Below, piece after piece: positions 19,961 to 20,806 of a stretch of 36,243 bases of DNA. The DNA is from Mucilaginibacter sp. (lineage in GTDB: Bacteria > Bacteroidota > Bacteroidia > Sphingobacteriales > Sphingobacteriaceae). Both the position numbers and the translations under genes were made by a program. Under the pieces are notes generated by a model. It saw nothing but the letters and a program-made list of their open reading frames with translations, ran no database searches and had not been told where the DNA came from. Position 1 is the stretch's first letter; each line of letters opens with the position of its first letter. The stretch lies in the NCBI GenBank assembly GCA_028287865.1, contig JAQBOU010000253.1, positions 1-36,243 on the forward strand. The letters run 5' to 3'.

Positions 19961-19968
19961 TAGTTTTG
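19961..19968 (+). promoter_or_regulatory. candidate -7 element (TAGTTTTG) for the putative ncRNA
   Basis: Exact match to TAnnTTTG, about 7 nt upstream of the predicted 5' end. Confidence 0.4.
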
Positions 19969-19974
19969 TATTTC

Positions 19975-20222
19975 TGAATGCAATATAGATTAACACCCGG
20001 CGTTTCGCTATAAGTTCAACAACTAATATAGCTGAAAAGACACAAACGGGGCATAAGTTTCTTATAATAACCCAATAAAATGAAATTAAATTTATTGGCC
20101 CGCCGGGTTGATAAATAAAGAGCTTGGGTAATCTTAAACATGTTATCTGAGATTTAGTTGATCAACATTATTTGAATGATGTTGTGTGCGTTCCGGGGTG
20201 AGATACGGAACGCATTTTTTTT
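19975..20222 (+). ncRNA. candidate structured non-coding RNA (unassigned class) ending in an intrinsic terminator
   Basis: P1 ACCCGGCG (19995-20002)/CGCCGGGT (20101-20108) closes hairpins GCTATA/TATAGC (20007-20032), ATAAG/CTTAT (20053-20065) and CCAATAAA/TTTATTGG (20072-20098). A downstream hairpin CAACATTA/TGATGTTG (20163-20184, one G-U and one A-U pair at the inner end) is followed by the terminator. No CDS on this strand upstream. Confidence 0.6.
20187..20222 (+). terminator. strong intrinsic terminator
   Basis: TGCGTTCCG (20187-20195) / CGGAACGCA (20206-20214) followed by T8. Confidence 0.92.
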
Positions 20223-20293
20223 GGTGCTGATTTAAAAAATATAACAAACATTTTAGACGTTAATAGTATTATAAAGAGTAAAACCAATTACTT

Positions 20294-20806
20294 ATGAAAT
20301 ATGCATTCATCATCGGCTCAAACGCTTTTATAGTACCCAAGGGTATAATATATTGCGGTAATAGGGAAAACGAAAGAATATTTTTACAGGTTAATTCTAT
20401 TTATCACGATACAACTGAAGGATCATTATTAGATATTGATGTTAATATTAAAGATACCGATGGCACTCCTGTTATTATTATAGCTAATCAAGCTGTTACA
20501 GGTGCTCCTTATTCGATAAAAAAACAACGGGACAGTATAAAAATTGTAAGATCAGATGGTTCAATGATCATCCACGTACACCAGCTTGATGACGAAGCCG
20601 CAATGGCCCTCGAACATAATATTGTTGCTGAACTTGAGGTACATGCCCCGATAGCCGTTATCAGGATAAGCGGCGAATTCATGGTTGATTCTCTTCATAT
20701 CAGTGCCGAAAATGAGAAGCTGTATATAAATAGCAACGGTTATGCTACGTCGGCAATGGTTGGTAAAAATAGGCTGACATTTACTTCAGCCGGAGTGGTA
20801 TTGTAA
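20294..20806 (+). CDS. hypothetical protein, predicted beta-rich
   Basis: 170-aa ORF starting 72 nt after the terminator; no recognised motif. Confidence 0.65.
   Translation: MKYAFIIGSNAFIVPKGIIYCGNRENERIFLQVNSIYHDTTEGSLLDIDVNIKDTDGTPVIIIANQAVTGAPYSIKKQRDSIKIVRSDGSMIIHVHQLDDEAAMALEHNIVAELEVHAPIAVIRISGEFMVDSLHISAENEKLYINSNGYATSAMVGKNRLTFTSAGVVL

Follow-up and report, generated by a model that had tools for sequence, protein, structure and literature searches.

What, if anything, is encoded by the noncoding DNA upstream of orf170 (20294 to 20806) in the window, a stretch of 36,243 nucleotides of Mucilaginibacter sp. DNA? The initial annotation had proposed an orphan structured RNA on the + strand, with an upstream promoter box, a multibranched core closed by a helix (P1), two outer hairpins and an intrinsic terminator, and had assigned it no function. 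Judged from sequence comparisons, the region is very probably a gene for one member of a family of trans-acting small RNAs (sRNAs) that would repress translation of a susC gene through base pairing. This reading draws on the observed conservation, structure, complementarity, co-occurrence and pair-preserving variation.

Conservation, architecture and extent of the RNA

The 248-nt segment examined had a predicted folding energy of -64.1 kcal/mol (z = -3.34), which was lower than that of 200 of 200 shuffled sequences. A cmscan of the window against Rfam 15, including 6S, 6S-Flavo, tmRNA, RNase P and SRP RNAs, detected nothing at the gathering threshold, and a scan at a lax threshold returned no convincing family. 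The best subthreshold match was to RteR (RF04181), with 24.1 bits compared to a gathering score of 72 and an E value of 0.17; this weak likeness was confined to the terminator end, and no further common feature was seen. Six orthologs and six paralog-bearing loci likewise matched no Rfam family at the gathering threshold, and a description of any Mucilaginibacter sRNA was not found in the open (nonsubscription) literature searched. Judged from these searches, this Mucilaginibacter sRNA family had not been catalogued before.

A DNA search of 200 genomes produced matches in 84, all except one within Mucilaginibacter, and the best match per genome nearly always covered the 3' part alone (about 20109 to 20224), mostly at 81 to 97% identity. 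A pattern derived from this 3' part retrieved 26 named records, of which one was a MAG labelled only 'Bacteroidetes bacterium' and all others were Mucilaginibacter. Using a covariance model (R1) with a threshold of E ≤ 0.001, matches were detected in 98 of 151 genomes of the genus. Across the family, the model matched 41 of 301 genomes, all of them from Mucilaginibacter, 1 of the 25 genera sampled, and had no match in the other 24. The order of genes at the locus was fixed, with the sRNA lying between a penicillin-acylase-type or p206-like gene and a DUF3810 gene, and this synteny persisted though the neighboring proteins had diverged. No R1 match was found at the DUF3810 locus of 24 genomes that were sRNA negative or weak. 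The product of orf170, which adjoins the sRNA in a single Mucilaginibacter clade, exhibited a weak subthreshold resemblance to DUF7529.

The sRNA and its parts, together with the elements proposed earlier, are as follows.

20026 to 20222, + strand: sRNA of about 195 nt, placed by conservation and synteny; inferred 5' end, 3' end at the terminator T-run
20001 to 20018, + strand: candidate promoter region, CGTT...TAAGTTCA, which aligns with CGTTCATTGTGTATCTTTG of the sister clade
19961 to 19968, + strand: promoter box TAGTTTTG of the initial annotation, a possible alternative upstream start
19995 to 20108, + strand: P1 of the initial annotation (19995 to 20002 with 20101 to 20108), present, without conservation
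20091 to 20115, + strand: hairpin H0, TTTATTGGCCC-GCC-GGGTTGATAAA, arms 20091 to 20101 and 20105 to 20115, covarying
20119 to 20155, + strand: hairpin H1, 20119 to 20121 with 20153 to 20155 and 20123 to 20129 with 20145 to 20151
20163 to 20184, + strand: hairpin H2, CAACATTAT/ATGATGTTG, 20163 to 20171 with 20176 to 20184
20186 to 20222, + strand: terminator H3, stem 20186 to 20195 with 20206 to 20215, then a T-run to 20222
20196 to 20205, + strand: invariant terminator loop GGGTGAGATA, with GTGAGAT at 20198 to 20204

The conserved part consisted of about 110 nt with three hairpins. Of the cells in helices H1, H2 and H3, 99.6% were paired, and there were 4 double-change pairs compared to 0.3 in shuffles. 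The sequence of H0 drifted freely while the hairpin was retained: in 42 orthologs the mean energy was -7.2 kcal/mol, compared to -3.6 kcal/mol for shuffled sequences (mean z, -2.06; Wilcoxon P = 6e-12), and many pair types were observed per inner position. A minimum free energy fold of the window sequence with a start near 20026 contained H0, H1, H2 and H3. The conserved architecture is predicted to be a linear row of H0, H1, a linker, H2 and the terminator. Such a row is typical of a base-pairing sRNA, unlike a compact riboswitch- or ribozyme-like fold.

Every sequence element listed in the initial annotation was found in place or within about 2 bases, and its orphan structured RNA with a terminator was borne out by the lack of an Rfam family and by conservation and covariation in related genomes. 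The terminator was perfect, with a stem of 9 to 10 bp and T8, and was strongly conserved together with the two outer hairpins (20117 to 20222). The multibranched core was not conserved. Pairing of P1 (ACCCGGCG/CGCCGGGT) amounted to 34.9% compared to 33.7% in shuffles, P1 was no better than slid controls, and it is mutually exclusive with H0, the hairpin that is kept in orthologs. The three inner hairpins (GCTATA/TATAGC, ATAAG/CTTAT and CCAATAAA/TTTATTGG) exhibited just 50 to 57% pairing in other species, and these helices, like P1, were rejected as conserved elements.

The Bacteroidota -7 box has the consensus TAnnTTTG. The best such box of the sister species, TATCTTTG, was located about 50 bases downstream of TAGTTTTG in the alignment, and the sister-species box CGTTCATTGTGTATCTTTGACAC aligned to CGTTTCGCTATAAGTTCAAC (20001 to 20020) in the window. 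This alignment suggests that transcription would start near 20026, and with this downstream start the 5' arm of P1 would fall outside the transcript. The box proposed earlier is indeed present at 19961 to 19968, and relatives from the clade of the window have a partly conserved counterpart, TGTTAnTTTTACAG; a promoter at this position, giving a longer transcript, is possible. A sigma-70 promoter scan detected no excess over shuffles, the sigma-70 model being ill suited to Bacteroidota.

Complementarity to the leader of a SusC-like gene

Targets were sought through pattern searches only. The pattern TTTAGTTGAT-N-GTGAGAT had six matches in the own genome (reversed pattern, 0), and two of these, which were not sRNAs, fell on the antisense strand of leaders that belong to two SusC-like genes. 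Read as mRNA, both leaders contained AUCAACUAAAUCUCAAUCUCAUGUUUAAAAG, the first 15 bases of which are the exact complement of sRNA positions 20148 to 20162; this sRNA segment (TGAGATTTAGTTGAT) perfectly complements ATCAACTAAATCTCA, which lies upstream of the SusC-like gene at a distance of five bases from its ATG. Two segments of the sRNA face the start of this gene.

20148 to 20162, + strand: main seed UGAGAUUUAGUUGAU, formed by the 3' arm of H1 and the linker, complementary to AUCAACUAAAUCUCA before the susC AUG
20134 to 20142, + strand: H1-loop segment UUAAACAUG, complementary to CAUGUUUAA in the susC start codon region

The longest complementary run was 15 nt, a length reached by 0 of 2,000 shuffles. 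Of the 151 Mucilaginibacter genomes, 83 had a site of 23 to 24 nt ending in ATG, nearly always once, with no match for the reversed-pattern control, and the same type of protein (MFKSLL(L/R)KGR...) followed the site in 32 of 32 leaders examined. The leader block at the site was nearly invariant while the remainder of the leader had diverged, and the site was predicted to be open (0.86 unpaired compared to 0.55 for the leader). In genome G117, the SusC-type protein had a CarboxypepD_reg-like domain and a TonB plug, and the operon consisted of susC, susD and genes for an FG-GAP/ASPIC protein and a PAP2 protein, adjoining those for a GH3 enzyme and an NrtR-type regulator. Most relatives had one such gene; the two SusC-like genes of the own genome (loci L103, G000:C71, and L106, G000:C99) had near-identical target leaders.

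Complementarity extended beyond the seed. The run opposite the start codon measured 9 to 11 nt in some species and 4 to 7 nt in others. Furthermore, AUCUCAC, the complement of the terminator-loop motif GUGAGAU, was found in 22 of 31 leaders compared to an expectation of 0.29; these sites occurred further up the susC leader at varying places, with one or more per leader. The seed itself was partly buried in H1 (0.24 to 0.31 unpaired), and the unconstrained RNAduplex energy was unexceptional, with 30 of 300 shuffles being as low.

Among genomes that were at least 95% complete, 66 of the 70 that had a strong sRNA match also had the site, compared to 0 of the 46 that lacked such a match. The site was still absent from 24 sRNA-negative genomes when three mismatches were allowed. 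Four near-complete genomes (G049, G054, G076 and G112) had a strong sRNA match and no site within three mismatches. When the sRNA label was placed on a tree of DUF3810, about three changes were required, so that few independent events underlie the co-occurrence; the distribution was that of a single main clade, inside which a few lineages (G041/G115 and G026/G101) would have lost the sRNA.

Variation in the seed nearly always preserved the pairing. All seed positions were paired or wobble-paired with the target in 45 of 46 sRNA loci, and the only changes in these 45 were from A to G opposite U, which preserved a wobble pair; the single exception was G112, whose target was not found. In G003, a C-to-T change in the leader (AUCAACUAAAUUUCA) was matched by a G-to-A change in the sRNA (UGAAAUUUAGUUGAU), with the exact complement being retained, and the variant seed combined with the terminator motif was found in no other genome among the 151. 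The compensated sRNA was not situated at the acylase-DUF3810 locus. Its position was just downstream of a gene for a LacI-type regulator (L224; G003:C8:33000-41000). The leader of G462 had the same change as that of G003, yet the variant seed (TGAAATTT) was not found, and G462 was dropped as a second compensatory case.

Proposed mode of action and alternative readings

We propose that the seed UGAGAUUUAGUUGAU would pair with AUCAACUAAAUCUCA, which occupies positions -20 to -6 in the mRNA for a single SusC-like TonB-dependent transporter. The apical loop of H1 (UUAAACAUG) may also pair with CAUGUUUAA in the window species and several of its relatives, and GUGAGAU in the terminator loop could, in many species, pair with one or more AUCUCAC sites in the upstream leader. 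The burial of half of the seed in H1 suggests that pairing would nucleate at the linker (20156 to 20162), after which H1 would open. Pairing would cover the translation initiation region and would presumably, under a triggering condition, repress susC and likewise the downstream susD operon. As the pairing is at -20 to -6, extends over the AUG in some species and meets a site predicted to be open, a block of translation initiation by the sRNA is most simply suggested by these sequences.

Pairing with the susC leader could instead activate the gene, either by freeing an inhibitory structure or by stabilizing the mRNA, and the long leaders with extra AUCUCAC sites in their variable region could serve such a switch. 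However, the position of the site, the extension of the pairing across the AUG in the window species and the predicted openness of the target all point away from activation, and repression is the outcome for the characterized Bacteroides sRNAs whose pairing is near a start codon (PMC11697453); we regard activation as unlikely. Another reading is that the RNA acts mainly as a sponge for an RNA-binding protein that recognizes hairpins with GUGAGAU or GUAAGAU loops and single-stranded UUUAGUUGAU, the match to the susC leader being incidental. An unusually invariant terminator loop is consistent with this, as is a second hairpin, present in some paralogs (L035, L036 and L207), whose loop contains GTGAGAT or GTAAGAT. 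The susC leader holds the complement and not the motif itself, though, and the sequence variation preserves base pairing, which a sponge would not require, making this reading quite improbable. In the window, orf170 begins 72 nt after the end of the terminator and has the same orientation, which would fit a cis-acting leader, an attenuator or a mere terminator of a neighboring gene with incidental structure. A leader of orf170 was ruled out by synteny: orf170 was found in one clade only, and the RNA was retained in a sister clade without it, in which the next gene, DUF3810, is convergent; no same-strand downstream gene was conserved. With paralogs at other loci as well, a cis-acting element is hardly credible.

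Repression by pairing may take a more elaborate form, a three-part clamp used by the whole paralog set, converging on one transporter operon and having arisen independently of FopS of Bacteroides. The linker/H1 seed would then act before the AUG and the H1 apical loop at the start codon, and AUCUCAC sites, whose place within the susC leader shifts freely, would be contacted by the invariant terminator loop. We put this forward tentatively and give it somewhat less than an even chance, the target common to the paralogs being one that we infer.

Related sRNAs and paralogs

LhrC1-5 of Listeria are multicopy sRNAs that resemble the Mucilaginibacter RNA, as proposed here, in using the terminator loop as a pairing site; they belong to another phylum and differ in having CU-rich seeds and other targets. 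A closer likeness was seen with FopS of Bacteroides thetaiotaomicron, which comprises 14 paralogs of about 65 to 70 nt. The FopS RNAs have a single-stranded seed at the 5' end, directly before the terminator; they pair with mRNAs for SusC-like transporters close to the start codon and repress susC translation (PMC11697453). FopS and the Mucilaginibacter RNA are multicopy Bacteroidota families (the own draft genome had four R1 matches, on C10, the window locus, and on C182, C167 and C148, and other genomes had up to 9 to 10 each), both have an intrinsic terminator at the 3' end and both have a seed directed near the susC start codon, here with 15 nt complementary to positions -20 to -6, a site found in 83 of the 151 genomes. 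In contrast to FopS, the Mucilaginibacter RNA has a predicted length of about 195 nt, three conserved hairpins, an internal seed (H1 arm and linker), an added start-codon-complementary loop and a complementary terminator loop, and its family was found in Mucilaginibacter only. The Mucilaginibacter sRNA would work in a manner analogous to FopS, yet is set apart by length, seed position and hairpin count. FopS is characterized by binding of the RRM protein RbpB and by translational repression both in vivo and in vitro, and has a seed sequence, R1/R1', in common with GibS of B. thetaiotaomicron, which acts on translation initiation regions through two pairing regions, R1 and R2 (PMC11697453). As compared by description, GibS and the proposed Mucilaginibacter sRNA both have more than one pairing region at translation initiation; instead of susC, GibS is reported to target a glycoside hydrolase 13 mRNA and a hypothetical gene.

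Control of susC-type transporters by sRNAs is documented in gut Bacteroides (PMC11697453), and in a soil genus a family of different build that is directed at the equivalent step suggests that Bacteroidota arrived at such control more than once. A base-pairing terminator loop would also join the sRNA repertoire of the phylum. With one seed, one target, a natural pair of compensatory changes and culturable strains that have both genes (for example, of Mucilaginibacter rigui or M. terrigena), the prediction is directly testable.

Paralogs occupied loci other than acylase-DUF3810 and had in common the linker TTTAGTTGAT, followed by a hairpin and then the terminator with its GTGAGAT loop. Paralogs L035 and L203 kept AACATGAG, which is complementary to the susC start codon region, and had AACAUGAG (complement, CUCAUGUU) instead of the H1-loop segment UUAAACAUG. 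L220 (G022:C7:59800-61300) had a susC pseudogene preceded by the conserved leader, and an sRNA paralog of the same orientation was located about 300 to 400 bases downstream of it. In the own genome, ATCAACTAAAT abutted or overlapped the starts of open reading frames of 500 and 116 amino acids (L100, G000:C14:30689-30699, and L108, G000:C134:3733-3743); these sites are possibly further targets or chance matches, the reversed-pattern control giving five sites. Three paralogs (L216 and L217, G092:C15; L219, G020:C15) were situated directly 3' of the apparent end of an upstream open reading frame (NPVKSLR...), and their seed was altered after TTTAGTTGA; they are possibly a 3'-UTR-derived subfamily with other targets.
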